Made by a program: the position numbers and the translations under genes. A model generated the notes under the pieces. It saw only the letters and a program-made list of their open reading frames with translations, had not been told where the DNA came from and did not search any database. Below are positions 22,797 through 43,799 of a stretch of 64,000 bases of DNA, piece by piece. Numbering within the stretch: position 1 is the stretch's first letter; every line of letters begins with the position of its first letter. Source of the DNA: Citromicrobium sp. JLT1363 (GTDB lineage Bacteria; Pseudomonadota; Alphaproteobacteria; Sphingomonadales; Sphingomonadaceae); contig NZ_AEUE01000010.1 in assembly GCF_000186705.1 (NCBI RefSeq), forward strand, positions 62,001 through 126,000, written 5' to 3'.

Positions 22797-24785
22797 ATGA
22801 CACCCATAGACATGCTCGCCTTAGCGCTGAAGTCCGCACCCCATCAAAGGGAGGCGATTGCTGCTCGCATCGGCGTTTCGATATCTTCTCTAGATCGTTG
22901 GGTTGCACGGAGCGCCGTTCCCACCGAGACGCACCGCGCGAAACTACTTGAAGTACTTGGAGAGTTGAACGCCAGGACCCCAGCAAGCGAGGCAAAGCAA
23001 CTGATTGATGCGCTACCGGCCGTGCGAGAGGTTATGCATAGTCGAGGCGTTACGTCTTCCCGAAATGACGCTATCGATCAAATCTCGGCTCTGATATTAT
23101 TCCAAATTCTCCACGCCCGGAAATTCACATCCCACCCCCAAAAAATAATAGATCGCCACAACTTCCAATTTGCATTAACCTACTTGCCCTCGGTCATCAA
23201 AAAAACATTTTCCGAACATGTGAGCAATAGCCTCAATTCTACATTGTCGTTTTTCAGAGATGAAATAAGCTTTACGTTCTCGTTATTAGACATTTTGAAG
23301 CCTGTATTAAATGAGATCGCTAGCCGCACCACCGGGACGAGCGACCACCTTTGGCACGAACTCTTTGTTGGCTTTCTTTCCTCTTCTTTTCACGAAGAAA
23401 AAGAATTTGCACAATACATGACCCCCATAGAGGTTGTGGATTTTATGGTGCAAGCGGCGGCGCTCTTTCTCCCCAAGCACCAGAAAACGGTCAAGGTTCT
23501 CGATCCTAGCTGCGGGACGGGAACATTCCTTACTAAGTGCTCCGACCTTATAAGTGACCGAAAGCTAACTATTTGCGGCGTAGACACGAATGAGCGAATG
23601 GCGCGATTGGCCGCCATATCAGCCGTTGCGAGCGACCTTGATCCGAAGTGCATCCGGCTAGGCAATTCGCTCAATGCCGATCTTGATGCTGACTTCCTCA
23701 ATCCTGGATTCGTCGATCTCATACTCACCAACCCACCTTTTGGAGCAGAGCATTCCAAGGGATCACATGGATCGAAAAAAGTCCCCTCCGAATTAGCTTA
23801 CTTGCCCCGTTATCTTGAGTGGCTAAAGCCAGAAGGCGTTTGCGCTGTAATCCTTCCCGATAGCGTCCTCACTAACCGAGGAGCTTTCTCAAACGCCCGA
23901 AGGGATTTGGCAAACGGTGCGGACATTCTCGCTGTCATTTCCTTACCCGCAATGACTTTTGCAGCGTCCGGAACCACGACAAAAACCTCTATAGTTATAT
24001 TGCAGAAGTCTTCGCCGACGCGGACGGCACAAAAGACATTCTTAGCCACTGTCAGCAATGTCGGTTTCAAGGTGGTGAATCGCGGCTCAGTCAGACGACG
24101 AGTACCTTCACTCCAGTCAGATTTTCCTTCACTAATCTCGGCACTTCGCGGGACTGATAATGCATTTGCGGGGATTATCGAAACACAACTCCCTCGCGAC
24201 GGGGAGCGCTGGGATGCACCATATTGGATATCGTCACTTCCTCGTCACGATCAGGATGCGTACGCGCAGGAGCTCACCCCGCTTTGCGAGCTCGCGGATT
24301 TGGTGAACGAGAAGGTGAATCCGAAAGTACTCGATGCCCAGACTTTCTTTTATATTGAGATTTCTGGTGTCGCGGGTGATCTGCTCAGGGTGTCAGCCAC
24401 AGAGACCCCGACAGCAGGCGCACCATCTCGCGCTCGAAGAAAGGTGAAGGCTGGTGACGTTCTGCTTTCGACAGTTAGGCCGGAAAGACGAACCGTGGGC
24501 GTCGTCCCGGCACACCTCGACGGCGCGATATGCTCGACGGGCTTTGCGGTAATTCGGCCGAAGTCGATTTCACCATACGTCTTAGCATCTATGCTAAGAA
24601 GCGAGATCGTAACCTCTCAATTAAATGGAATAGCTTCTGGTGTAGCCTACCCTGCATTCGACGCGGCGGCGGTCGACAAAATTTCCGTTCCTTTTGTCGA
24701 TGAGAGAAGGGTGCAAAAACTTATTTCCTACGGTCGGACGCTTGAGGCCCTAGAAGTCGCAAGGCTTGCCCTGGAAATGAGCTAA
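22797..24785 (+). CDS. N6-adenine DNA methylase with fused specificity (TRD) domain
   Basis: 662 residues. The N-terminal ~60 residues look like an HTH (REAIAARIGVSISSLDRWV). The helical domain and catalytic domain are of the type I HsdM class: SAM-binding motif I DPSCGTGTF (~236) and motif IV NPPFG (~312). From ~480 there is a single HsdS-like target-recognition domain (ELADLVNEKVNPKV, KVKAGDVLLSTVRPERRTVGVV, GIASGVAYPAFDAAAVDKI). The protein therefore combines modification and specificity subunits, as in several type II and IIG-like systems. It should methylate adenine at one recognition site. Its end overlaps that of the convergent nuclease gene by a few bases. The coding DNA is AT-richer than the host genome, a sign of transfer. 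Confidence 0.88.
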   Translation: MTPIDMLALALKSAPHQREAIAARIGVSISSLDRWVARSAVPTETHRAKLLEVLGELNARTPASEAKQLIDALPAVREVMHSRGVTSSRNDAIDQISALILFQILHARKFTSHPQKIIDRHNFQFALTYLPSVIKKTFSEHVSNSLNSTLSFFRDEISFTFSLLDILKPVLNEIASRTTGTSDHLWHELFVGFLSSSFHEEKEFAQYMTPIEVVDFMVQAAALFLPKHQKTVKVLDPSCGTGTFLTKCSDLISDRKLTICGVDTNERMARLAAISAVASDLDPKCIRLGNSLNADLDADFLNPGFVDLILTNPPFGAEHSKGSHGSKKVPSELAYLPRYLEWLKPEGVCAVILPDSVLTNRGAFSNARRDLANGADILAVISLPAMTFAASGTTTKTSIVILQKSSPTRTAQKTFLATVSNVGFKVVNRGSVRRRVPSLQSDFPSLISALRGTDNAFAGIIETQLPRDGERWDAPYWISSLPRHDQDAYAQELTPLCELADLVNEKVNPKVLDAQTFFYIEISGVAGDLLRVSATETPTAGAPSRARRKVKAGDVLLSTVRPERRTVGVVPAHLDGAICSTGFAVIRPKSISPYVLASMLRSEIVTSQLNGIASGVAYPAFDAAAVDKISVPFVDERRVQKLISYGRTLEALEVARLALEMS

Positions 24786-25702
24786 GCAAGATCCCAAACC
24801 TCGTCGATGCTGGCGAACCAGACGCCATCGCCAGGTTCGCACAAGGGGTTCTGATTGACGTGTTCCGGATATTTTCGTGAGCGAGGCAAACCATGCTGCT
24901 CGACGTCTTCCGGCACAGACCTAGCAAAAGCTATGTCCCCTATCCTTCCTGTCCTGAGAAATAGGCCAACCGCAAAAAAGTCTTGGGTTTCGAACTTGCA
25001 GCTGCTCGTGGGATAATAATTCTTCTTTTGCGCGACACTCCAGTTCGCAGGATCCCCCTTAGGGGCGGTGGTTGTACTATGGATAAGGCGCGCCCGCCTC
25101 ACATCGGTCCCCCAAAGTGATTTGGACTCGACGCGTTTCGAAACCCCATCTTTCTCGAAGACAAAATCGAAATTTGCATATGATCCTAAATGCCTAGCCA
25201 TATCTTCCGGCATGCGCGTTACCGTATACCCCCTGTCGACACCATGTCTGTAGAGATAATACTCTGACAGCGCACTCAATACCTTAGCAGATGCTCCGTA
25301 TTGATCGACTTCCCATAGGTCTGACAATGAAAGTTGTTGAAGAGCAGCCTCAAGATCGACCTTCTTCGTCCCAACATATATTTCGCCATGCGCGATCTCA
25401 TTGTCGTGGTCTACATCGCAAATTCGACCTTTCGCGATTTCGCGCCAATTTGCTCCGGCGGCCGAACCCGGAACGAACTTACCTGTTCGCCCACGCACAA
25501 CCACCGCACGATTTTCTGGGGTCACCTTAATTGTAAAGCTTGCCCGCCAATGATTTTCACCATCGTTACGAAAAACGGTCTTGTCTAAGCTCGCGATCGG
25601 CACAAGCAGTGGACAGAGAACAGCAGCCATCGATTCCAAAGTCGCGCCCTCGTATCGGCGCGTCAGTTCGGCCAAAATGTCCTGCTCTTGCTCTGTCGCC
25701 AT
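24782..25702 (-). CDS. Probable restriction endonuclease, PD-(D/E)XK type
   Basis: 306 residues, no close named family. FDFVFEKDGVSKRVESKSLWG holds a D(179)...E(192)-x-K(194) arrangement on two strands, the core of PD-(D/E)XK restriction nucleases. The protein is encoded tail to tail with the methylase and the stop codons overlap (24782-24785), a common layout in restriction-modification pairs. Expected role: cleavage of DNA unmethylated at the partner's site. The N-terminal ~130 residues may carry DNA recognition. The nuclease call rests on motif plus context, not on family recognition. The 205 bp upstream lead into the right attachment repeat. Confidence 0.72.
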   Translation of the reverse strand: MATEQEQDILAELTRRYEGATLESMAAVLCPLLVPIASLDKTVFRNDGENHWRASFTIKVTPENRAVVVRGRTGKFVPGSAAGANWREIAKGRICDVDHDNEIAHGEIYVGTKKVDLEAALQQLSLSDLWEVDQYGASAKVLSALSEYYLYRHGVDRGYTVTRMPEDMARHLGSYANFDFVFEKDGVSKRVESKSLWGTDVRRARLIHSTTTAPKGDPANWSVAQKKNYYPTSSCKFETQDFFAVGLFLRTGRIGDIAFARSVPEDVEQHGLPRSRKYPEHVNQNPLCEPGDGVWFASIDEVWDLA

Positions 25703-25904
25703 AAGCCCCCCTCTGAAAGAGCGTATGGCAATCAGCGAAAGGAGCGGCTGTCAATGGCACAGTACCCGCTTTGCTTCGCTTCCCGATCCTCAGCCGCGAT
25801 CTGTTAAGCGAACGCGTTCTCCCAGAGCCCACCCACTCGCTTCCCATAGGCGCACCCAGCCGAACGGCCTCTCGCCTTACAACGGCGCGCGGATAAGCTG
25901 AGGG

Positions 25905-25952
25905 AGGTGGTGCCGCTTACGTGACTCGAACACGTGACCCCATCATTACGAA
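25905..25952 (-). repeat. Right attachment-site repeat within tRNA-Thr
   Basis: 48 bp identical to 15689-15736, forming the 3' part of the intact tRNA-Thr gene. The similarity continues leftward to about 25829 with eight mismatches, so the island carries extra host-like DNA beyond the tRNA end. Confidence 0.9.
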
Positions 25953-25983
25953 TGATGTGCTCTACCAACTGAGCTAAAGCGGC
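25908..25983 (-). tRNA. tRNA-Thr (anticodon CGT)
   Basis: A 76-nt cloverleaf on the minus strand: acceptor GCCGCTT, D arm TAGCTCAGTTGGTAGAGCA, anticodon stem CATCA/TGATG with loop TTCGTAA (anticodon CGT, reads ACG), T arm with GTTCGAGTC, encoded CCA. The 3' 45 nt are supplied by the integrated island and preserve a normal tRNA. Confidence 0.96.
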
Positions 25984-26070
25984 ATTTCGCGTGGAAGGAC
26001 GCCCCTTAATCGTCACGTCCGCGCCTCGCAATGCCAAAATGCGGCGGCGGGCCGGACCGGGCCTCTCACG

Positions 26071-27117
26071 CTAGGCGGCGATCCTTTCGCACACTGCGCT
26101 TATGACCTCGTGCGTGCTTGCCGATCCGCCAATATCCCCAGTGCCGATTCCGTCGGACAGGCAGGCCGCGATGGCGCCTTCTATCGTGACGGCAGCATCT
26201 TCCTGGCCCAGGGCGTGGCGCAGCAGCATCGCCGCGCTGAGCATTGCGCCCACCGGGTTGGCCTTGCCCTGCCCCGCGATATCCGGCGCGGATCCGTGGA
26301 TCGGTTCGTACAGGCCGCCATGGGTCTGCGAGAGCGAGGCCGAGGGCGCGAGGCCGATGGAGCCCGCGATCACCGATGCCTCGTCGCTCAAAATGTCACC
26401 GAACATGTTTTCGGTCAGGACGACGTCGAAGGCGGCGGGCCGTTCGATCAGCTTCATGGCCATCGCATCAACCAGCACATGGTGGAGCTCGATGTCCGGA
26501 TAGTCGGCGTCGCGCAGCGCGATCACCGTGTTGCGCCACAGGCGGCTGGTGGCGAGCACGTTGGCCTTGTCGACCGACGTGACCCGGCGCGAGCGGCCCC
26601 TTGCGGCATCGAAGGCGATGCGCGCGATCCGCTCCACTTCCTGGCGCGAATAGCTGCAGAGGTCGGAGGCGTTTTCGTCACCTTCCACCTTGTCGCCGAA
26701 ATAGATACCGCCGGTGAGTTCGCGCACGATCAGCATGTCCGTACCCGACGCGCGTTCGGCCTTCAGCGGCGAGAGATGCTCAAGCCCGGGAAACAGCGTG
26801 ATCGGGCGCAGGTTGGCGAACGCGCCAAGCGCCCTGCGCAGCGCAAGCAGGCCCGCTTCGGGGCGCGGCCCGCCCGCGTCCCACTTCGGCCCGCCTACCG
26901 CGCCGAGGAACACCGCGTCCGCCTCCACGCAGGCCTCGGCCGTGGCGTCGGGAAAGGGATCGCCATGCGCATCGATCGCGCAGCCGCCGATATCGTGGCT
27001 GGAGAACTCCAGCGGAAGGCCATGCGCGGCGCCAGCTTTTTCGAGCACGGCGCGCGCGGCCTGCGCGACTTCGGGGCCGATACCGTCGCCGGGGAGCAGT
27101 ACGATTGTGTGGGTCAT
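26071..27117 (-). CDS. leuB: 3-isopropylmalate dehydrogenase
   Basis: 348 residues, standard length. It oxidatively decarboxylates 3-isopropylmalate to 2-oxoisocaproate with NAD+, the third step of leucine synthesis. Visible are LLPGDGIGPEV at the N-terminus, the substrate-binding arginine region ALRRALGAFANLRPI, and the metal/NAD region FGDILSDEASVIAGSIGLAPSAS followed by EPIHGSAPDIAGQGKANP. Last gene of the branched-chain superoperon; its ATG overlaps the leuD stop. The operon end lies next to the tRNA-Thr gene. Confidence 0.97.
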   Translation of the reverse strand: MTHTIVLLPGDGIGPEVAQAARAVLEKAGAAHGLPLEFSSHDIGGCAIDAHGDPFPDATAEACVEADAVFLGAVGGPKWDAGGPRPEAGLLALRRALGAFANLRPITLFPGLEHLSPLKAERASGTDMLIVRELTGGIYFGDKVEGDENASDLCSYSRQEVERIARIAFDAARGRSRRVTSVDKANVLATSRLWRNTVIALRDADYPDIELHHVLVDAMAMKLIERPAAFDVVLTENMFGDILSDEASVIAGSIGLAPSASLSQTHGGLYEPIHGSAPDIAGQGKANPVGAMLSAAMLLRHALGQEDAAVTIEGAIAACLSDGIGTGDIGGSASTHEVISAVCERIAA

Positions 27118-27695
27118 GCCGCGGCAGCCTCGTAAGCGGCGATGGCTTCCTCGTGCGCGACGATATGGCCGAGCGGGTCGACCCCGTCGAGCAGGCAGCG
27201 GCGCGCGAATGGCTCAACGGTGAACTGCGCGCGGATATCGTCCTCGGTCTCGAGCGTGCAGCTTTCGAGATCGATCACGATCCGGATGCCCGGACGCTCC
27301 AGCAAGGCCGCATGGGTCCGCTGATCCACCTCGACCGGCAGCAGGCCGTTCTTGAGCGCGTTGCTTTTGAAGATGTCCGCGATGTCCGAACTGATGACCG
27401 CACGAAAACCATAGTCGAGCAGCGCCCAGGGCGCATGTTCGCGCGAGGAGCCGCAGCCGAAATTGGCGCCAGCCACCAGCACCTGCCGGTCGCCCGCCCC
27501 CGCAACCGGGAAGGGAGAGGCGTTCTTCGGCTGGTCGTCTTCGGTGTAGCGCCAGTCGTAAAAGGCACTCTTGCCCAGCCCTTCGCGCGTGGTCGTGGTG
27601 AGGAAGCGTGCCGGAATGATCTGGTCGGTATCGATATTGCTCTGGCGCACGACCAGCGTGCGCGCTTCCAGTCGGTTGAAAGGCTCAGGCTGCAT
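27114..27695 (-). CDS. leuD: 3-isopropylmalate dehydratase small subunit
   Basis: 193 residues, an aconitase-swivel domain. [14 protein letters not shown] and [17 protein letters not shown] are the family signatures. It forms the heterodimer with LeuC that isomerises 2- to 3-isopropylmalate. It overlaps leuC by 11 nt at its start and leuB by 4 nt at its end, so the three are translationally coupled. Confidence 0.97.
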
Positions 27696-29103
27696 CGCGC
27701 GCCTCCGTGCCGAGATATTGGGAAGGGTCGGCGATATGCCCGGCGATTGCGCTGGCGGCAGCGGTGGCGGGGCCGGCCAGCACCGTGCGCACGCCCTTGC
27801 CCTGCCGGCCGACGAAATTGCGGTTCGAAGTCGAGACGACCAGTTCCCCGGGCGCGCCCTGATCGCCGTTCATCGCAATGCACATCGAACAGCCCGGCAT
27901 GCGCCATTCGGCCCCGGCTTCGGCGAACACCGTGTGCAGCCCCTCGGCCTCGGCCTGCTGGCGAATCGCTTCCGAGCCGGGCACGATCAGCGCGATAACG
28001 CCGTCCGCCACCTTGCGCCCGCGCATCACCTCGGCCGCTTCGCGCAGGTCCGCCATGCGCGAATTGGTACAGCTGCCGATGAAGACGCGGTCGACCTTCG
28101 CCTCGGCAAAGGGCCGGTCGGCGGCAAAGCGCATGTACTCCGCAGCCTCGCGTTCGGAATCGTTCGCGGGCCGGGGCGCGTTGCCCGTTACCGGCGCCGC
28201 CGCATCGGGCGATACGCCGAAGGTTATCATCGGACGGATCGCGGCGGCATCCACCCTCACTTCGCTGTCGAACTGCGCGTCCCGATCGGAGGGAAGTTCG
28301 CGCCAGCGCGCGACGGCCGCATCCCAGGCTTCGCCCTGAGGCGCGCGCTCGCGCCCTTCGAGGTAGGCAAAAGTCGTGTCGTCCGGGGCGACCATGCCCA
28401 CGCGCGCGCCCGCCTCAATCGCCATGTTGCACAGCGTCATGCGCGCTTCCATCGACAGCGCTTCGACTGCGGGTCCGGCAAATTCCACTGCGTAGCCCTG
28501 CCCGCCATCGGCGCCGATCTGCGCGATCATGGCGAGCGCCATGTCCTTCGCACCCACTCCCGGCGAAAGCTCGCCCTCGAAGGTGATGCGCATCGATTTC
28601 GGCTTGCGCTGCAGGATGCATTGCGTGGCCAGCACGTGCCCCACCTCGGTCGTGCCGATCCCGAAGGCCAGCGCGCCGAATGCGCCGTGGGTGGAGGTAT
28701 GGCTGTCGCCGCACACGATCGTCTTGCCCGGCTGCGTCAGCGCCAGTTCGGGGCCGACAACATGGACGATGCCGCGGCGCGGATCATCCAGGCCGAGCAG
28801 GTCTATGCCATGCTTCGCGCAGTTCGCCTCCAGCTGGTGGACCTGTTTTTCCGCGTCCTCGGTCGCGTAGGGCAGGCGCCCGTCGGGGCCTGGCGGCAAG
28901 GTCGGCGTCGAGTGATCGAGCGTCGCCTGCGTCAGGTCCGGACGCCGCACGGGCAATCCGCGCTCCTCCAGCACCGCGAAGGCCTGTGGCGAGGTAACCT
29001 CGTGGATCAGGTGCAGGTCGATGAAGAGGATCGCAGGGCTATCCTCGCTTTCGGGGACGACGACGTGCGCGTCCCACAGCTTGTCGAACAGGGATCGTGC
29101 CAT
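27685..29103 (-). CDS. leuC: 3-isopropylmalate dehydratase large subunit
   Basis: 472 residues from ATG 29103 ([15 protein letters not shown]). An aconitase-type [4Fe-4S] enzyme: the cluster cysteines are in SCTNSR and PGCSMC, with a further one expected upstream. [20 protein letters not shown] is the substrate-site motif. It dehydrates and rehydrates isopropylmalate together with LeuD. The frame is open upstream to 29520, but that part is antisense to leuA. The spacing of 11 bp after leuA marks it as part of the same operon. Confidence 0.97.
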
Positions 29104-29114
29104 TGTTCCAGCTC

Positions 29115-30677
29115 TCAGGCTGCGTCGGCAAGGCGCGAACTGTCGGCCATGCGCGCGTGATTGTTGAACGCGGCGAGCAGCGCCTCGGCGGCGGCGATCA
29201 CCACATCGGTGTGCTGGCTGCGCCCGGCAATGGCGACCCCATCGACCGTCAGGCCCACCCCGATTTCCATCTCGCGCGAAAGCTGATGGGCATCGACGCT
29301 TTCGAGCATGCCTTCCTTCACTTCGGCGGCGACGCAGAAGGCATCGGTCAGCGCCTCGAACGGGCCGGTGCCGTGACCGATGGTGGTGATCCGCCCGCGC
29401 GCCCGGTGATCGAGCGTGACCTTCGCCGTCGGGCGCTCCTGCGCCTTGGTGCCGGTGCGCATCTCCACGCGCACCAGTTCCCACGCATGCCCGCGACCGT
29501 CCTCCGCGACCAGATCGCACAGGTCGTTATCGGTCACTTCGCGCTTGGTGTCCGCCAGCCGCTTGAAGTCGGCATAGAGCTGTTCGAACCGGTTCGCGCC
29601 GAGTTCGTGACCCAGCGCTTCCAGCCGCGCGCGCAGCGCGTGCTTGCCCGAGTGCTTGCCCAGCACCAGCGCGTTGGACGGCAGCCCGATATCCTCGGGC
29701 TTCATGATCTCGTAGGTGCGCCGGTCGGCCAGCACGCCGTGCTGGTGAATGCCCGCCTCGTGCGCGAAGGCGTTGCGGCCCACGATGGCCTTGTTGCGCG
29801 GCGGCGCGTTGCCGGTCGTCTCGCCCAGCAGACGGCTGACGGCGAAGATCTCGCGCGTTTCCACGCCGGTGGTGGCGGCATAGTGATCGGGCCGGGTGTT
29901 CAGCGCCATGACCACTTCTTCCAGCGCGCAATTGCCCGCACGCTCCCCGATCCCATTGATGGTGCATTCGACCTGGCCTGCGCCGCCGCGAACCGCGGCG
30001 AGGCTGTTCGCCACCGCCATGCCCAGATCGTCATGATTGTGGGTGGAGAAGATCACATGGTCGGGCCGCGCGACATTGGCGGTCAGGTCCGCGAACAGCG
30101 CGTAGATTTCTTCGGGCGAAGTGTAGCCAACCGTGTCGGGCACGTTGAGAACGTCCGCACCTGCCGCCGCCGCACATTCGAGAACCTCCTTCAGGAAGGC
30201 GGGTTCGGTGCGCAAAGCATCCTCGGCCGAAAACTCGATCTCGGTGAAGCGGCCCCTCGCCATCTTCAGCGCCCGTTCGATGGTCTTGAGCGCTTCGGGC
30301 TTTTCCATCTTGTGCTTGGCCGCCAGATGCAGGTCGCTGGTGCCGAAGAACAGGTGCAGCCGGCTGCGGCGCGCAGGCCCCAGCGCCCGCTCGGCGGCGT
30401 CGATGTCACCCTCCGTCGCGCGCGAGAGCGAGCACAGCATGGGCGCGTCGTGCAGATACCCGATCTCGCTGGCGATCGTATGGATCGCCTCGGCATCCCC
30501 GGGGGAGGCGGCTGCGAAGCCGACCTCCATCACATCCACCTTCAGCTTCGTCAGCGCATGCGCGAGCTTGAGCTTCTGCGCCGTGTTCATGGAGAAGCCG
30601 GGCGCCTGCTCGCCATCGCGCAAGGACGTGTCGAAGATCGCAATATTGCGCACACCGGTCTCAGGCTGTTGCGACAT
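29115..30677 (-). CDS. leuA: 2-isopropylmalate synthase
   Basis: 520 residues, the bacterial LeuA type 1 size. The TIM-barrel opens with [16 protein letters not shown] (metal Asp, catalytic Arg). [15 protein letters not shown] carries the metal His pair, and [18 protein letters not shown] follows. The C-terminal ~130 residues are the leucine-feedback domain ([20 protein letters not shown]). It condenses acetyl-CoA with 2-oxoisovalerate as the first committed step to leucine. Its start overlaps ilvM by 17 nt, linking the leu and ilv parts of the superoperon. Confidence 0.97.
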
Positions 30678-30939
30678 TGGCTACCTCCATGACCGGGGGG
30701 GCATTGCTCAGGCGGATCGTGGTCTCGACATCGTACAGCCGCTCCACCTGGCGCAGCATGATGTCGACCCGGCGGCTCTCGTCCAGCGGCTCCAGCGCCA
30801 GCGTCATCACGGCGCGGTTGCCATCGCTGCCCATCTGCATGGAACGGACCGCGAAGGCGCGCGCCTCGATCACGCCGAGGATCCGGCGAAGCGCGCCTTC
30901 CGCGCAGCGGAATTCGATGCGGATATGTTCAAGTTTCAT
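30661..30939 (-). CDS. ilvM: Acetolactate synthase small subunit, short IlvM-like ACT domain
   Basis: 92 residues, one ACT domain (IRIEFRCAEGALRRILGVIEARAFAVRSMQM), matching the size of IlvM rather than the ~160-residue IlvN/IlvH. It should regulate the catalytic subunit encoded directly upstream. Start and stop overlap ilvG (11 nt) and leuA (17 nt) respectively. Short size may mean altered or absent valine feedback, as known for the IlvGM isozyme of enteric bacteria. That point is inference. Confidence 0.85.
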   Translation of the reverse strand: MKLEHIRIEFRCAEGALRRILGVIEARAFAVRSMQMGSDGNRAVMTLALEPLDESRRVDIMLRQVERLYDVETTIRLSNAPPVMEVANVATA

Positions 30940-32638
30940 TGCGCTTCTCCATCATTTCGGCATTGGATTTGCCCGGTGGCACCAGCGGCCACACGTTTTC
31001 TTCCGGATCGATCCGGACATGCGCGAGGATCGGTCCGCGCGCGGCCATCAGCCGGTCGATCGCCCCGTCCACTTCCTCGCGCCGTTCGATGCCGAAAGCC
31101 TCGATTCCGAAGGCGTTGGCGACCTCGACGAAATCGGGATTGTCGGACAGATCGACCTCGGAATAATTGCCGGCAAAGAACAGCTCCTGCCACTGGCGCA
31201 CCAGGCCCAGCATCGCGTTGTCGAGCAGCACGATCTTCACCGGGATCTGGTAGCGGCGCAGCGTCGCCAGTTCCTGGATGTTCATCTGGAACCCGCCGTC
31301 GCCGCAGATTGCGAAGACCTCCTTTTCCGGCTCGGCCAGCTTGGCGCCGATTGCGGCGGGCAGGCCATATCCCATCGCGCCGAGGCCGCCGCTGGTGAGG
31401 TGCGCCTGCGGGCGCGAGAAGCGGCAGTGCTGCGCAACCCACATCTGGTGCTGGCCGACATCGCACGCGGCGACGAAATCGTCACCCACGCGTTCCGACA
31501 GCGCCTTGAGCATCGCGGGCGCATAGATGCCATTGCCCGGCGCGTCGTAGCGCGGGGCGTAGGCGGTGCGGTCCGCCATGATCCGGTCGGTCCACGGCTG
31601 GATATCGCCCCGCGCGAAGTCGATCGCCGCCAGGCTTGCCTTCAGGTTGCCGCACACTGCCGCATGGGCAAAGCGCAGCTTGCCCAGTTCGGCGGCGTCG
31701 ACGTCGATATGGACGACCGAGGCGTGCGGCGCGAATTCGGCCAGCTTGCCGGTCGCCCGGTCGTCGAACCGCGCACCGACCACGATCAGCAGATCGCTTT
31801 CCTGCACCGCCATGTTGGCCGCGCGGTGGCCGTGCATCCCCAGCATGCCCAGCATCGCGGGATGCTCGGGCGGCAGCACGCCCAGGCCCTGCAAAGTCGC
31901 AACCGCCGGGATGCCGCTTTCATCGACGATGCGGCGTACCATCTCGCTCGCGTTGGAACGCCCGATCCCGCCGCCAAGATAGAACAGCGGGCGCTGCGAG
32001 GCGGCGATCAGCTTTTCGGCCTCGGCAATCGACTCCTGCGACGGTGAAGGCAGCACGTCCGCTTTGGGAAGACGTTTGCCGGGATTATCGCATTGCGCCT
32101 GCTGCACGTCCTTGGGCAGATCGACCAGCACCGGGCCGGGCCGCCCGCCCTCGGCGATGGCGAAGGCCTCCGCCAGCATCGCGGGAATATCCTCGGGCCG
32201 GCGGATGATGATCGAATGCTTCACGATCGGCATCGTCATGCCGAAGATATCGGTTTCCTGAAAAGCGTCGGTCCCCATCATCGGCTGCGCGACCTGGCCG
32301 GTGATCGCAACCATCGGCACCGAATCGAGATAGGCATTGGCAATCCCGGTGATGAGGTTGGTCGCACCCGGACCGGAGGTGGCCAGGCACACCCCCGCCC
32401 GGCCGGTCGCCCGGCCATAGGCATCGGCGGCGAAGGCGGCGGCCTGTTCGTGCCGGACGAGGATGTGACGCGTACTGCCCTGCGGAAGCGCATCGTAAAC
32501 CGGCATGATCGCTCCGCCGGGATAACCGAACACGCATTCTACCCCGAGCGCGCCCAGCGTATCGACGACGAGTTGCGCACCCGTGCGGGTGGCAGGCTCA
32601 ATCTCGGGACTGGGGGCGGGCGTGGTCATGGCGGTCAT
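30929..32638 (-). CDS. ilvG: Acetolactate synthase large (catalytic) subunit
   Basis: 569 residues, a ThDP-dependent synthase. The N-terminal ThDP domain has VFGYPGGAIMPVYDAL and the catalytic Glu in RHEQAAAFAADAYGRATG. A central FAD-type domain follows. The C-terminal cofactor motif is GDGGFQMNIQEL with ~30 residues to LLDN. It makes acetolactate or acetohydroxybutyrate from pyruvate. Pairing with a short IlvM-type subunit suggests the IlvG naming; ilvB is also defensible. Start ATG 32638, no strong ribosome binding site; a second ATG is at 32629. It lies 30 bp downstream of ilvC. Confidence 0.95.
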   Translation of the reverse strand: MTAMTTPAPSPEIEPATRTGAQLVVDTLGALGVECVFGYPGGAIMPVYDALPQGSTRHILVRHEQAAAFAADAYGRATGRAGVCLATSGPGATNLITGIANAYLDSVPMVAITGQVAQPMMGTDAFQETDIFGMTMPIVKHSIIIRRPEDIPAMLAEAFAIAEGGRPGPVLVDLPKDVQQAQCDNPGKRLPKADVLPSPSQESIAEAEKLIAASQRPLFYLGGGIGRSNASEMVRRIVDESGIPAVATLQGLGVLPPEHPAMLGMLGMHGHRAANMAVQESDLLIVVGARFDDRATGKLAEFAPHASVVHIDVDAAELGKLRFAHAAVCGNLKASLAAIDFARGDIQPWTDRIMADRTAYAPRYDAPGNGIYAPAMLKALSERVGDDFVAACDVGQHQMWVAQHCRFSRPQAHLTSGGLGAMGYGLPAAIGAKLAEPEKEVFAICGDGGFQMNIQELATLRRYQIPVKIVLLDNAMLGLVRQWQELFFAGNYSEVDLSDNPDFVEVANAFGIEAFGIERREEVDGAIDRLMAARGPILAHVRIDPEENVWPLVPPGKSNAEMMEKRNET

Positions 32639-32668
32639 GGTTCTCGCTTTCAGAAAGGTGTCCTGCGA

Positions 32669-33700
32669 TCAGGCAGCCTTCTGCTCCTTCTTCTTCCGGG
32701 CGGCTTCCAGCCACGGCATCATCGCGCGCAGCTCCTTGCCGGTCGCTTCGATGGGGTGGCTCAGATCGGCGGCCTGCATCTTGTCGTATTCGGCCTTCCC
32801 GGCCTCGTTCTCGGCAATCCAGTTCTTGGCGAAGGTGCCATCCTGAATGTCGGTCAGGACCTCCTTCATCCGCGCACGGGTTTCGTCGTTGATGACGCGC
32901 GGACCGGAGACGAGATCGCCGTAGATCGCGGTTTCGGAGACGAACTCGTGCATCTTCTCGAACCCGCCTTCGTACAGCAGATCGACGATCAGCTTCAGTT
33001 CGTGCAGGCACTCGTAATAGGCGATTTCAGGCTGGTAGCCCGCGTCCACCAGCGTCTCGAACCCGGCGGCGACCAGTTCGGTCGCACCGCCGCACAGCAC
33101 GGCCTGTTCGCCGAACAGATCGGTCTCGGTTTCCTCGCGGAAGCTGGTTTCGATCGCGCCGGCGGTCGTCCCGCCGATCAGGCTGGCATAGGCCAGCGCA
33201 CGCTCGCGCGCTTCGCCGGTGGCGTCCTGACGCACGGCGAACAGGCACGGCACGCCCGCGCCGCGTTCGTATTCGCGGCGGACCAGATCGCCCGGCCCCT
33301 TGGGCGCAACCAGGATCACGTCGATCCCGTCGGCGGGCTGGATGCGCTCGTACAGCACGGTGAAGCCATGCGCGACGAGCAGCGCGTCGCCCTGTTCCAG
33401 GTTGGGCGCGATCTCGCTGGCGTAGATCGCCTCGTGGCTCATGTCCGGCGTCAGCAGCGCGACGAGCGATGCGGCCTTGGCGGCCTCGGCCACCGGCATC
33501 ACGGTCAATCCGTCGGCGCGGGCCTTGGCCGCGGTGGGCGAGCCGTCGCGCAGGCCGACGATCACTTCGCAGCCGCTTTCCTTCAGGTTCATCGCATGGG
33601 CACGGCCCTGGCTGCCGTAGCCGATCACGGCAACGGGACGGTCCTTGACCAGCGCGGGCTTGGCATCGGCATCGGTGTAGACTTTGATGGTTTTCGGCAT
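32669..33700 (-). CDS. ilvC: Ketol-acid reductoisomerase (class I)
   Basis: 343 residues from ATG 33700 ([17 protein letters not shown]), GAGGGAAC upstream. The NADPH Rossmann motif is [19 protein letters not shown], and the C-terminal knotted domain has [19 protein letters not shown] with the magnesium ligands. The short length defines class I. It converts acetolactate to dihydroxyisovalerate with NADPH. It begins 13 bp after ilvD and lies in pathway order within the operon. Confidence 0.97.
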
Positions 33701-33713
33701 GATTTCAGTTCCC

Positions 33714-35390
33714 TCACTCGGTAACGGGTGGAATGGTGGTGGCGCCGTAAGCGGCGGACGAGACAAGGCGGGCGTACTTGTCGAACGCGCCGCCCATGCG
33801 GTTGAGTTCACGCGGGACATGCGCCGCGCGGCGCGCGTCCCAGTCGATATCGGCGTCGATCCGGCGTGCATCTGTGTCGATACGGACGATGTCGCCTTCC
33901 TCGATCAGTGCGATGGGGCCGCCAGCGGCTGCTTCCGGGGAGCAGTGGCCGATCACGAAACCATGGCTGGCTCCGGAAAAGCGCCCGTCCGTGATCAGGG
34001 CGACCTCTCCGGCGAGGCCCTGCCCGGCAAGCGCTGCGGTAACCGCCAGCATTTCGCGCATGCCCGGGCCGCCTGCGGGGCCTTCGTAGCGGATGATAAC
34101 CACGTCTCCGGCCTTGATCCGGTTGGCGTTGACGGCGGCGAAGCAGGCTTCTTCACCTTCGAACACCCGGGCCGGGCCCTCGAAGGATTTCGAACCATAT
34201 CCGGCGGTCTTGAGCACCGCGCCTTCGGGCGCGACATCGCCGTAGAGAATGCTCAGGCCTCCGGTCGCCTTGACCGGATCGGCGGGGGTTTTGACGACCT
34301 GCTGGCCTTCGGTTTCCTCTGCCTCGGCCAGTTCGGCGAACAGGCTGCGCCCGGTCACGGTCGGCGTATCGGCGATCATCTCCGCATCGGCCAGCCGCTT
34401 GCCGAACAGCGGCACGCCGCCTGCCGCGTAGAGATCGCGGGCCAGAAAGCGCCCGCCCGGCTTGAGGTCGGTAATGACGGGCACGGTGCGCGAGAGCTCG
34501 TCGAAGGTCTCGATCGGGAAGGCGAAGCCCGCCTCGGCCGCGATCGCAGGCAGGTGCAGCACCGCATTGGTCGAACCGCCGCTGGCGACCACGGCGGTGG
34601 CCGCATTGCGAACCGACGCCGGGGTGACGAAGCTGCGTGCCGAGGTGCCCTCGTGCGCCAGCTTCGCGGCCAGCCGCCCGCAGCGCGCAGCTTCGACACG
34701 CTTGGCGGCATCGGTCGCGGGCGGATCGCCCGATCCCATGGGGGAGATACCCATCATCGCCAATGCCATGGCCATGGTGTTGGCGGTGAACTGGCCGCCG
34801 CACGCGCCGGCGCCGGGACACGCGGCACGCTCGACCTTGTCGAGTTCCGCATCGCTCATGTCACCCTTGGCATGCGCGCCGACGGCTTCGAACACATCCT
34901 GGATCGACAGGTCGCGCCCATCCATGTGGCCGGGCATGATCGTGCCGCCGTAGAAGACCAGTCCGGGAATATCGAGCCGCGCCAGCGCCATTGCGGCGGC
35001 AGGGATGGTCTTGTCGCAGCCGACCAGTATGACCGCCGCGTCCAGAGAATGGCCGCGCACCGCCAGCTCTATCGAATCGGCGATCAGTTCACGGCTCATC
35101 AGCGAGGCGCGCATGCCCTCGCCGCCCATCGTGATCCCGTCGGAAACGACGATGGTGTTGAAATCGACCGGGGTCGCACCGTTTTCGCGCAGGCCCTGCC
35201 GGATCGGCTCGGCCAGATCGGCGAGGTGCATGTTGCACGGTGTCACGGTGGACCATGTGTTGACCACCGCGACCATGGGCTGTGCCATCTGCTCGTCCGT
35301 AAAGCCCGCGCCACGCAGCATGGCGCGCGCCGGCGCCTTGGCCGGGCCCTTGGTGATCGCGTCTGAGCGTTTGGAAGCTGTTTGCGTCAT
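33714..35390 (-). CDS. ilvD: Dihydroxy-acid dehydratase
   Basis: 558 residues from ATG 35390. An IlvD/Edd family enzyme: cluster cysteines in [26 protein letters not shown] and [15 protein letters not shown], and the C-terminal substrate motif [16 protein letters not shown]. It dehydrates dihydroxyisovalerate and dihydroxymethylvalerate to the 2-oxo acids. First structural gene of the superoperon, immediately downstream of a terminator-like hairpin and a Val/Leu/Ile-rich leader ORF, so it is probably controlled by attenuation. The frame is open to 35636, but that stretch crosses the leader. Confidence 0.97.
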
Positions 35391-35425
35391 GTCGTTTCGT
35401 CCCCAGAGCATGCCTGGACGGTCCA

Positions 35426-35463
35426 AATAAAAAACCCCGCTATCCTTACCGGAGAGCGGGGTT
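35426..35463 (-). terminator. Attenuator of the ilv-leu superoperon
   Basis: On the minus strand, AACCCCGCT (35463-35455) and AGCGGGGTT (35441-35433) form a perfect 9-bp stem with a 13-nt loop, followed by TTTTTTAT. It lies between the leader ORF stop (35486) and ilvD (35390). The 5' arm sequence CCCCGCTC (35461-35454) is exactly complementary to GAGCGGGG in the leader ORF (35512-35505), giving an alternative antiterminator pairing. Confidence 0.85.
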
Positions 35464-35485
35464 CGAGAGGTCCGTCTGGCTTGGC

Positions 35486-35608
35486 TCAGCCGATGGGCAC
35501 CCCTCCCCGCTCGATAAGAAGTACGAGTACAAGGACAAGGAGCAGCACAAAGGCCAGCGCGGAGGGCGCTGCTTCGTTTGCAATCCGGGGTGCGGCCTTG
35601 GCCTGCAT
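35486..35608 (-). CDS. ilvL: Branched-chain leader peptide (ilv attenuation)
   Basis: 40 codons from ATG 35608, preceded by GAGGAA. After ~20 ordinary residues come twelve consecutive branched-chain codons, [12 protein letters not shown], then ERGGVPIG and TGA. The run uses CTT four times and GTA twice, codons that are uncommon in the surrounding GC-rich genes. The codons for ERG directly after the run carry GAGCGGGG, complementary to the attenuator's 5' arm. This is the layout of classical ilv/leu leader peptides: ribosomes stalled for lack of charged Leu, Val or Ile tRNA free the antiterminator. The sequence features are directly visible. The mechanism is inferred from the enteric paradigm. 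Confidence 0.85.
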
Positions 35609-35654
35609 TCCTGATTCCTCGCATGCGCAGCACCATTGCTGCGGTGGCGAGACG

Positions 35655-35684
35655 TTTATATCATCAGAACTTAAGGGCAAGCAA
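35655..35684 (-). promoter_or_regulatory. Candidate sigma-70 promoter of the ilv-leu superoperon
   Basis: On the minus strand, TTGCTT (35684-35679) and TATAAA (35660-35655) are 18 bp apart. Transcription would start near 35648, about 40 nt before the leader peptide ATG. An AT-rich stretch lies upstream. It is the best promoter-like match between proB and the leader. Confidence 0.5.
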
Positions 35685-35761
35685 AAATATTACCGAATTT
35701 TCGATTTTTACGCTCCGATTGTGTCCCGACCAGCGCAAGCCTGCTGGATTCCGGCGGAATC

Positions 35762-36574
35762 TCAGGGGTCTGCGGGGGCGAACAAAGTGGCGCGGGCGCC
35801 CTCCGCCAGCCGGTGGATCGGGTGGTCCTCGCGCCCGCTGGCAATGATCGTGCGGCACCCCAGCGCTCCTGCATGGCGCGCCGCCGCGATCTTGGTGGCC
35901 ATGCCACCCGTGCCCACGCCATCGGCCTGCGTGCCCCCCGCCATTGCGACGATCCCCTCGTCGATCGAAGATACGTACCCGACATGCCGCGCAGCCGCCT
36001 CGCGCGGGTCGCGATCATAGAGCCCGTCCACGTCGGACAGCAGCAGCAGCAGGTCTGCCCCGGCCAGTTCGGCGACGCGGGCGGACAGCCGGTCGTTGTC
36101 GCCCAGCTTCAGTTCCTCTGTGGCGACGCTGTCGTTCTCGTTGACCACGGGCACCGCGCCCGCTTCCAGCAATACGGCCAGCGTCGCCTGCGCATTGGCC
36201 GATCGTTCGGGCGATACGCTGTCCTGCAGGGTGAGCAGCAGCTGCGCGACCGCGACATCGTGTTCGGCAAAGGCAGCCGCCCATGCATTCATCAGCAGGC
36301 TCTGCCCGATCGCCGCCGCCGCCTGGCGTCGGTCCAGCTGCGTGGAGCGCGGGATGCCGAGCCGCTGCCAGCCAAGCGCGACGGCCCCCGAACTCACGAC
36401 GATGACGGTGGCGCCCGCTTCGCGCAGATCGACCAGGTCGCGCGCCAGTCCGGCCAGCCAGCCCGCACGCGGGGTCCGGTTCGCCGGGTCGATCAGCAGC
36501 GAGGAGCCGATCTTGACGACGATCCTTCCGGCAGAGCCCAGCCATTGCGCGGCAGTCGGTTCGGGGTTTCTCAA
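35762..36574 (-). CDS. proB: Glutamate 5-kinase, short form without PUA domain
   Basis: 270 residues, an amino-acid-kinase domain: GRIVVKIGSSLLID phosphate loop, VSSGAVALGWQRLG, PVVNENDSVATEE and LGDNDRLSARVAELAGADLLLLLSDVDGLY. It phosphorylates glutamate in the first step of proline synthesis. The ~100-residue C-terminal PUA domain of E. coli ProB is absent, so this is a compact form. Start: a TTG at 36574 overlapping the TGA of the upstream HTH gene (TTGA). No GTG or ATG gives a better start, and upstream reading is antisense-like. Usual partners obg or proA are not adjacent. Confidence 0.88.
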   Translation of the reverse strand: MRNPEPTAAQWLGSAGRIVVKIGSSLLIDPANRTPRAGWLAGLARDLVDLREAGATVIVVSSGAVALGWQRLGIPRSTQLDRRQAAAAIGQSLLMNAWAAAFAEHDVAVAQLLLTLQDSVSPERSANAQATLAVLLEAGAVPVVNENDSVATEELKLGDNDRLSARVAELAGADLLLLLSDVDGLYDRDPREAAARHVGYVSSIDEGIVAMAGGTQADGVGTGGMATKIAAARHAGALGCRTIIASGREDHPIHRLAEGARATLFAPADP

Positions 36575-36888
36575 GTGCTCTCTCGCTCCGTCTGCCCGTG
36601 ATGAAGGATCAGCAGGCGCACCAGTTTCGCGATCGGCCGGGGAACGCCGATGCGGCCATCCAGCCAGAGACTCACGGTCGAACGGTCGACCCCGATGGCC
36701 CGGGCGAGCGCAGTCTGGGTGGAATATCCCAGTTCGTCCATCGCCAGCTTGAGTTCCGCGGGCTGCATCGAGGCGAGCATCGGGTCGACCGCGTCTGCAT
36801 CTTTTGTGCAACTGCGGCTCGCAGGTGCAGTAGCTTTAATGTCACACTCGTTGCCCGTTGAATATTTCACGCCCGTTTTTTGGCTCAT
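36571..36888 (-). CDS. Small HTH protein upstream of proB
   Basis: About 105 residues if started at ATG 36888 (AAAGG upstream), or 69 if started at ATG 36780; the frame is open further to 37101. The conserved part is the C-terminal Cro/YdaS-like helix-turn-helix (GYSTQTALARAIGVDRSTVSLWLDGRIGVPRPIAKLVRLL). The N-terminal extension (SQKTGVKYSTGNECDIKA) looks unstructured. The stop overlaps the proB TTG start, so the two may be co-translated. Targets unknown. It is divergent from glnK. Confidence 0.6.
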   Translation of the reverse strand: MSQKTGVKYSTGNECDIKATAPASRSCTKDADAVDPMLASMQPAELKLAMDELGYSTQTALARAIGVDRSTVSLWLDGRIGVPRPIAKLVRLLILHHGQTEREST

Positions 36889-37066
36889 TGCGGCCTTTAA
36901 AGGTCCGTTTTTCAAAGCCTTCCCCCACCAAATGCTGCGCTGCAAAACAAGATTGACCGGCTCGTTGTAATTGTGCGATGCATCATAAATGACAAATCCA
37001 TGACCCTTCAAGCAAGAATTGGAGGGAGTGGCTGCTGTCACGTGAAATTTTCTACCAGGGGGGAAT

Positions 37067-41986: not shown

Positions 41987-43799
<1,813 letters not shown>

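Follow-up and report, generated by a model that had tools for sequence, protein, structure and literature searches.

The ilv-leu operon and its neighbourhood

The window, by which we mean the whole 64-kb stretch of Citromicrobium sp. JLT1363 DNA analysed here, carries on its minus strand eight genes of branched-chain amino acid biosynthesis in the order ilvD-ilvC-ilvB/G-ilvN/M-leuA-leuC-leuD-leuB, which overlap or are separated by 30 nt or less. The dihydroxy-acid dehydratase gene ilvD (33714-35390) was recognised by the NCBIfam model NF002068 (717.7 bits, cut-off 644) and the ketol-acid reductoisomerase gene ilvC (32669-33700) by NF004017 (518.7 bits, cut-off 336), while the best model for the acetolactate synthase large subunit (ilvB/G; 30929-32638) was one for AHAS II of the ilvG type, NF006524 (857.4 bits, cut-off 738). 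The small subunit (ilvN/M; 30661-30939), a protein of 92 aa, is weakly ilvM-like, scoring 34.8 bits with NF008362, below the cut-off of 68, and holds an ACT domain (Pfam ACT_5, 51.9 bits, cut-off 27). These genes are followed by leuA, encoding 2-isopropylmalate synthase (29115-30677; NF002086, 606 bits, cut-off 532), by leuC and leuD for the large and small subunits of 3-isopropylmalate dehydratase (27685-29103, TIGR00170, 624.8 bits, cut-off 560.25; 27114-27695, TIGR00171, 173 bits, cut-off 116.25), and by leuB for 3-isopropylmalate dehydrogenase (26071-27117; TIGR00169, 459.6 bits, cut-off 353.2). The eight genes are presumably read as one transcript. A simple consensus scan of positions 25000-37000 on both strands found seven terminator-like sites where shuffles predicted 7.7, and two of the seven lie within the operon on the minus strand. 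It gave no evidence for an internal terminator, but it also missed both the promoter and the terminator of the leader described below.

The initial annotation had called the ilv-leu superoperon complete, a description that has to be given up, because ilvA lies on contig 23 and the best match to ilvE, sought with the type I model only and scoring below its cut-off, on contig 24, the window being on contig 17. The only acetolactate synthase in the genome over the family cut-off is that of the ilv-leu operon. About 7 kb away, on the opposite strand, a second dehydratase of the IlvD/Edd family (about 42184-43704, plus strand) is some 33% identical to the operon IlvD. Past the operon lies a convergent pair formed by an N6 DNA methylase-like gene (22797-24785, plus strand; Pfam N6_Mtase) and a gene for a 306-aa protein (24782-25702, minus strand) with no match in NCBIfam or Pfam; the two are possibly a restriction-modification pair.

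A leader with a Val/Leu/Ile codon run precedes ilvD

Upstream of ilvD, on the same strand, an open reading frame of 40 codons plus TGA (35486-35608) starts with the ATG at 35608 and ends with the stop codon at 35486, 95 nt from the ilvD start at 35390. Its codons 21-32 (35548-35513) form an uninterrupted run of 12 Val/Leu/Ile codons, GTG CTG CTC CTT GTC CTT GTA CTC GTA CTT CTT ATC, in which the single Ile codon is the last; a further Ile codon occurs earlier, at leader codon 9. Val/Leu/Ile runs of at least seven occur nowhere else in the six frames of the 64 kb, and the longest runs in 20 mononucleotide shuffles reached 5-8. Ahead of the leader, a putative promoter (35655-35684) consists of TTGCTT (35684-35679) and TATAAA (35660-35655) spaced by 18 nt, and a putative ribosome-binding site, GAGGA, lies at 35616-35620; by eye, near relatives show a similar promoter-like motif at the same place and GAGG ahead of the leader ATG.

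The leader stop codon is followed by a spacer of 24 nt and by a predicted intrinsic terminator (35429-35461), a hairpin CCCCGCTCTCC-GGTAA-GGATAGCGGGG with its 5' arm at 35461-35451, loop at 35450-35446 and 3' arm at 35445-35435, which runs into six T at 35434-35429. The stem CCCCGCTCTCC/GGATAGCGGGG contains one C-U mismatch before the six T, and within it AACCCCGCT/AGCGGGGTT is the perfect 9-bp stem of the initial annotation. Directly after the codon run lies GAGCGGGG (35512-35505), which can pair without mismatch over its 8 nt with CCCCGCTC in the terminator 5' arm and which is, given the co-variation among relatives reported below, the candidate outer 5' arm of an antiterminator. Folding of the nascent RNA predicts in addition an inner 5' arm, AGGGGT (35499-35504), and an inner 3' arm, ACCTCT (35466-35471), the latter being part of a GGACCTC element between leader stop and terminator that can be seen by eye in many relatives. 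The leader as a whole folds better than its shuffles (z = -2.75 over 111 nt, z = -3.0 over 184 nt). The letters thus agree with what had been claimed for the locus, namely a 40-codon leader with twelve uninterrupted Val/Leu/Ile codons, a segment right after them that pairs exactly with the terminator 5' arm, and a promoter, ribosome-binding site, leader, antiterminator and terminator that can all be placed.

Taken for the window alone, complementarity of the GAGCGGGG type was not significant (p = 0.38; shuffles were equally good in 57%), since the tail of the window leader, the part from the end of the run to the stop codon, is G-rich. As single-locus shuffles fail to single out the window, the conclusion on the antiterminator rests on the comparison of relatives.

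Conservation of the leader and terminator in relatives

For this comparison a sample of 35 upstream regions was used, one per genome and including that of the window, from loci with an IlvD at least 58% identical; the nearest named IlvD record was that of Citromicrobium sp. UBA3494 (99% identity). A Val/Leu/Ile-rich leader ORF, defined as 8-12 such residues in the best 12 codons regardless of start codon or ribosome site, was found together with a terminator upstream of ilvD in 33 of the 35, the window included, while in the two loci that lacked the leader (L017 and L040) the best 12 codons reached 6. A hairpin and T tract followed the leader stop in every leader-bearing locus (33/33), at a stop-to-terminator spacing of 22-36 nt, and Val, Leu and Ile were all present in the last 30 codons of each leader (33/33). 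By eye, the tail of the ORF differed from group to group. Runs of five or more within 500 nt upstream occurred in 27/33 loci of this IlvD kind, duplicates included, as against 1/22 control loci carrying the other IlvD kind, which is 46-50% identical.

Genes were scanned in 32 loci, some leader-bearing loci on short contigs being left out. The order ilvD, ilvC, ilvB, leuA, leuC, leuD, leuB was found in 22 of these, and 18 of the 22 also matched the small subunit in tblastn. Four loci of one other family of the same order (f6) carried ilvD-ilvC-ilvB-leuA and leuB with no match to leuC or leuD, and six loci showed no such operon in the stretch examined (L017, a longer stretch around L040 listed as L090, and four with the other IlvD kind). 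The leader-led operon also exchanges parts among relatives, namely the AHAS small subunit, ilvA or ilvE at differing places: ilvE follows leuA in Euryhalocaulis (L016; 11627-12595), Brevundimonas MYb52 and L081, ilvA stands ahead of leuA in Parvularcula (L013; 14877-16151), and Marinicaulis (L010; 14503-15069) has an AHAS small subunit of standard length.

Co-variation of the antiterminator and terminator arms

The longest perfect complement between the leader tail and the terminator 5' arm was measured for each locus and compared with that obtained when partners were permuted among loci, the relatives drawn upon not being independent samples. With 28 sequences the mean complement was 6.96 nt for true partners as against 5.90 (sd 0.19) for permuted ones, with 22 sequences 6.86 versus 5.68 nt, and with 14 sequences 6.86 versus 5.47 nt (sd 0.32), and none of 20 000 permutations reached the true value in any of the three sets. 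The complement shifts its letters and its register among groups, reading GGTCGGGG:CCCCGACC, GAGGAAGCA:TGCTTCCTC and CCGGAAGCGG:CCGCTTCCGG. An energy-based mix-and-match of tail and terminator arm was weaker (p = 0.022), and in shuffles made locus by locus this pair reached p 0.05 or less in 6/28 loci, the window not among them. The arms thus co-vary across relatives, and the antiterminator would be mutually exclusive with the terminator.

The energy-based test gave no signal for the tail and the spacer (p = 0.52; 0.15 or more with perfect complements), for the early leader and the terminator arm (p = 0.98), for the run with either the terminator arm (p = 0.81) or the tail (p = 0.16), or for the post-terminator region and the terminator arm (p = 0.34). 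No conserved protector (1:2) stem, of the sort that brings about super-attenuation when translation is absent, was found, the early leader and the tail showing no co-variation (p = 0.95). The spacer and the post-terminator region gave p = 0.002 in the energy test (28 sequences) and, with perfect complements, p values of 0.013, 0.157 and 0.129 for 28, 22 and 14 sequences; per-locus shuffles were significant for this pair in 5/28 loci, the window not included. Past the T tract stands an exact complement of the spacer element, GACGGACC/GGACCTC, with a length of 8 nt in L029 and L016 and of 7 nt in L011 and L012, so that read-through RNA could form a second stem around the terminator; in the window the corresponding pairing (35476-35469 with 35424-35417) is imperfect.

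Codon usage in the leaders

Codons were counted in the last 30 codons of 28 leaders and in the ilvD genes of the same loci. GTA made up 44/108 leader Val codons (41%) as against 19/1105 in ilvD (1.7%), CTT 74/192 leader Leu codons (39%) as against 106/1128 (9%), CTA 15/192 leader Leu codons as against 14/1128, and ATT 36/70 leader Ile codons (51%) as against 159/908 (18%). GTA, CTT and ATT are thus strongly enriched in the leaders, CTT and GTA being the codons remarked upon in that of the window. CTT and CTC usually share one tRNA, as do ATT and ATC, and part of the bias may for that reason serve RNA structure. Rare regulatory codons probably sharpen the response. Codon choice has been held to set the sensitivity of attenuators, with rarity alone described as an oversimplification (PMC1183508).

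Predicted folding and proposed mechanism

In a fold model of the nascent window RNA that lacks the terminator 3' arm, the antiterminator is composite, with GAGCGGGG:CCCCGCTC outside and AGGGGT:ACCTCT inside, which would give the recurring GGACCTC spacer element a role, though tail and spacer do not co-vary. With the ribosome at run codons 1-8 the antiterminator had a probability of 0.92-0.96; at run codons 9-12 it was covered, counting 12 nt past the A-site codon as lying under the ribosome, and a ribosome on the stop codon left only the terminator. In 26/28 loci, upstream pairing of the terminator arm was more extensive when the ribosome had stalled than when it stood at the stop (mean 0.72 vs 0.33); it was as extensive in the no-ribosome state as in the stalled one (mean 0.73 vs 0.72, 28 loci). 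Compared with shuffles, the switch score was at 0.05 or less in 10/28 loci, the window not included, with a mean of 0.72 vs 0.57 (Wilcoxon p = 0.0005). Once the full terminator was present, the equilibrium favoured it at every stall position (P 0.67-1.00), so that switching would have to be kinetic. In the same model the untranslated nascent leader of the window folded the antiterminator (0.93) and the full untranslated leader the terminator.

Taken together, the conserved leader, its fixed spacing, the codon enrichment, the co-variation and an ilvL-like layout argue for a classic ribosome-mediated transcription attenuator, and we put the probability that an attenuator of the ilvL kind controls the eight-gene branched-chain amino acid operon at about 90%. 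The earlier proposal of a translation-controlled attenuator is hence supported, and the alignment of relatives that had been named as a check found the codon run, the terminator and the complementary segments conserved and co-varying. In the proposed mechanism, RNA polymerase would transcribe the leader with a ribosome trailing. When Leu-tRNA and Val-tRNA are ample, the ribosome would reach the stop codon and cover GAGCGGGG-AGGGGT, upon which the terminator hairpin would form and transcription stop near 35429. Under a shortage of leucine or valine, the ribosome would stall early in the run and leave GAGCGGGG-AGGGGT exposed, and this segment would pair with ACCTCT and CCCCGCTC while the terminator 3' arm has yet to be transcribed; with the antiterminator so formed, polymerase would continue into ilvD and on to leuB. 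Translation of the leader, termination in vivo and the response to starvation are what we infer from these features. Because the sole Ile codon of the run adjoins the antiterminator, isoleucine shortage may not induce the operon and may even shut it, while shortage of leucine or valine should induce it; this prediction depends on the footprint assumption and one fold model, and the Ile at leader codon 9 could also stall the ribosome.

Alternative explanations

The element could be an ordinary or partial terminator between proB and ilvD, next to which a small gene for a hydrophobic membrane peptide happens to lie, with no sensing of amino acids. The peptide is indeed hydrophobic and might span a membrane, a terminator downstream of proB would come as no surprise, and the complementarity within the window by itself falls short of significance. 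An accidental neighbourhood of this kind is nonetheless hard to reconcile with an ORF-terminator spacing that is fixed in 33/33 loci and with the co-variation of the antiterminator and terminator arms, and a membrane peptide would leave unexplained the synonymous bias to GTA, CTT and ATT and is at odds with a tail that varies between groups. In L007, L013 and L014, moreover, no proB match was present in the 10 kb upstream that were examined, so the element follows the ilv-leu operon and not proB. We regard this explanation as improbable.

A riboswitch or T-box, in which a metabolite or tRNA is sensed by the RNA in place of a translating ribosome, would likewise place a terminator beside an alternative upstream pairing and would agree with a leader that folds better than its shuffles (z -3.0), but no Rfam family reached its gathering score in the leader, two tRNAs elsewhere being the only elements of the window to do so, and the parts that are conserved by eye, the codon run, the complementary arm, the GGACCTC element and the terminator, include nothing aptamer-like. 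A permissive Rfam scan returned seven sub-threshold hits with no T-box or aptamer family among them; the best, RF02501 (E 0.013, 19.6 of 45 bits), was taken as chance. An ilvD motif RNA has been described as a riboswitch candidate of the genus Veillonella (PMC8632094). Direct sensing by the RNA is accordingly given very little credence, and the same holds for a leader acting chiefly on translation, through ribosome reinitiation or exposure of the ilvD start. A translational role could draw on the spacer element with its exact complement after the T tract in L029, L016, L011 and L012, and on the co-variation of spacer and post-terminator region in the energy test; the support from perfect complements, however, fades as the sequences are thinned, the pairing in the window is imperfect, leader stop and ilvD are 95 nt apart, and an intrinsic terminator is present in 33/33 loci. 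Ribosome-mediated transcription attenuation remains the preferred reading.

Evolutionary history and significance

A tree of 40 IlvD rows placed the 13 around the window next to Marinicaulis and Parvularcula and apart from the seven f6 rows of the same order, with a support of 80 at the fork uniting Marinicaulis, L009 and L037. Constraining the 13 and the seven f6 rows to group together was rejected (p-AU 1.3e-39), as was forcing the 23 rows from this order into a single clade (p-AU 1.4e-6), in topology tests that were chosen after inspection of what is a quick tree of IlvD alone. The tree suggests that the operon, with its leader, crossed between orders, to which old duplication and loss may be an alternative. 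This IlvD kind was present in at least 11 of the 199 genomes sampled in the family of the window, its own included (E 1e-185, best seven candidates a genome), and class-wide in at least two of 385, again with its own (E 1e-180, best three candidates a genome). A genome of the same genus (G004) had no IlvD of this kind, its matches being 32-39% identical or partial, so some members of the genus may have lost the operon or replaced it.

As a tentative and rather doubtful synthesis, it could be envisaged that a self-contained cassette of the ilvD-led ilv-leu operon and its attenuator moved between alphaproteobacterial orders, and that in the Citromicrobium group the antiterminator arm shifted relative to the run, such that the last four codons, including the sole Ile, no longer signal. 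The switch would then report on leucine and valine, would either ignore isoleucine shortage or be shut by it, and could be turned off only with the help of translation. The locus offers a conserved, experimentally simple alphaproteobacterial case of attenuation that spans both branched-chain pathways, and relatives provide natural variants of antiterminator register and operon content. Their comparison could address how the position of a codon with respect to the antiterminator determines the amino acid being sensed, and whether operons take their regulators along when they move.

Comparison with known attenuators

A search of mainly open-access literature, with the proteobacterial survey of Vitreschak and others (2004) outside its scope, returned, among the matches listed, nothing that deals with this leader or with any attenuator of an ilvD-led ilv-leu operon from the Alphaproteobacteria. 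The ilvL leader of the E. coli ilvXGMEDA operon (NC_000913.3, locus L091) likewise has a Val/Leu/Ile run and AHAS II genes in its operon, and the same script found there GTGCGGGG 5 nt past the run, with a complement of 8 nt in the terminator arm, and a stop-to-terminator distance of 24 nt. This likeness is one of layout. The E. coli operon is without leu genes, whereas here ilvD comes first and leuACDB are included, and its run ends in three Ile codons, whereas that of the window has one, at the end.

The attenuator of Caulobacter ilvBN is reportedly documented by Tarleton in 1994, the source cited for it. In Caulobacter crescentus, the ilvBN leader carries tandem Ile/Val codons along with a rho-independent terminator (PMC4117421); it resembles the window element as an alphaproteobacterial leader with a terminator and differs in controlling ilvBN only. 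The initial annotation had found it unusual that one leader before ilvD should serve both pathways, which was an overstatement, as such an arrangement is known from S. aureus, where a leader peptide of 26 aa and a terminator before ilvD control the ilv-leu operon (PMC5794164), and from Listeria, where Rli60 does so with a 13-aa leader peptide and a terminator (PMC5864092), each with reporter and mutant evidence. Compared by description, both share with the window a single leader peptide and terminator ahead of an ilvD-led ilv-leu operon; they differ in belonging to the Firmicutes and in being regulated by CodY as well (PMC5794164, PMC5864092), and the S. aureus antiterminator is proposed to pair with the poly-U tail (PMC5794164), unlike the terminator-arm pairing predicted for the window. 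Judged by its sequence, the window element is predicted to work like the ilvL, S. aureus, Listeria and Caulobacter attenuators and, apart from a protector stem, has those of their defining features that are accessible to computation. The element is a well conserved member of an established class, and its twist with respect to the known attenuators, the placement of its codons, is a modest one.
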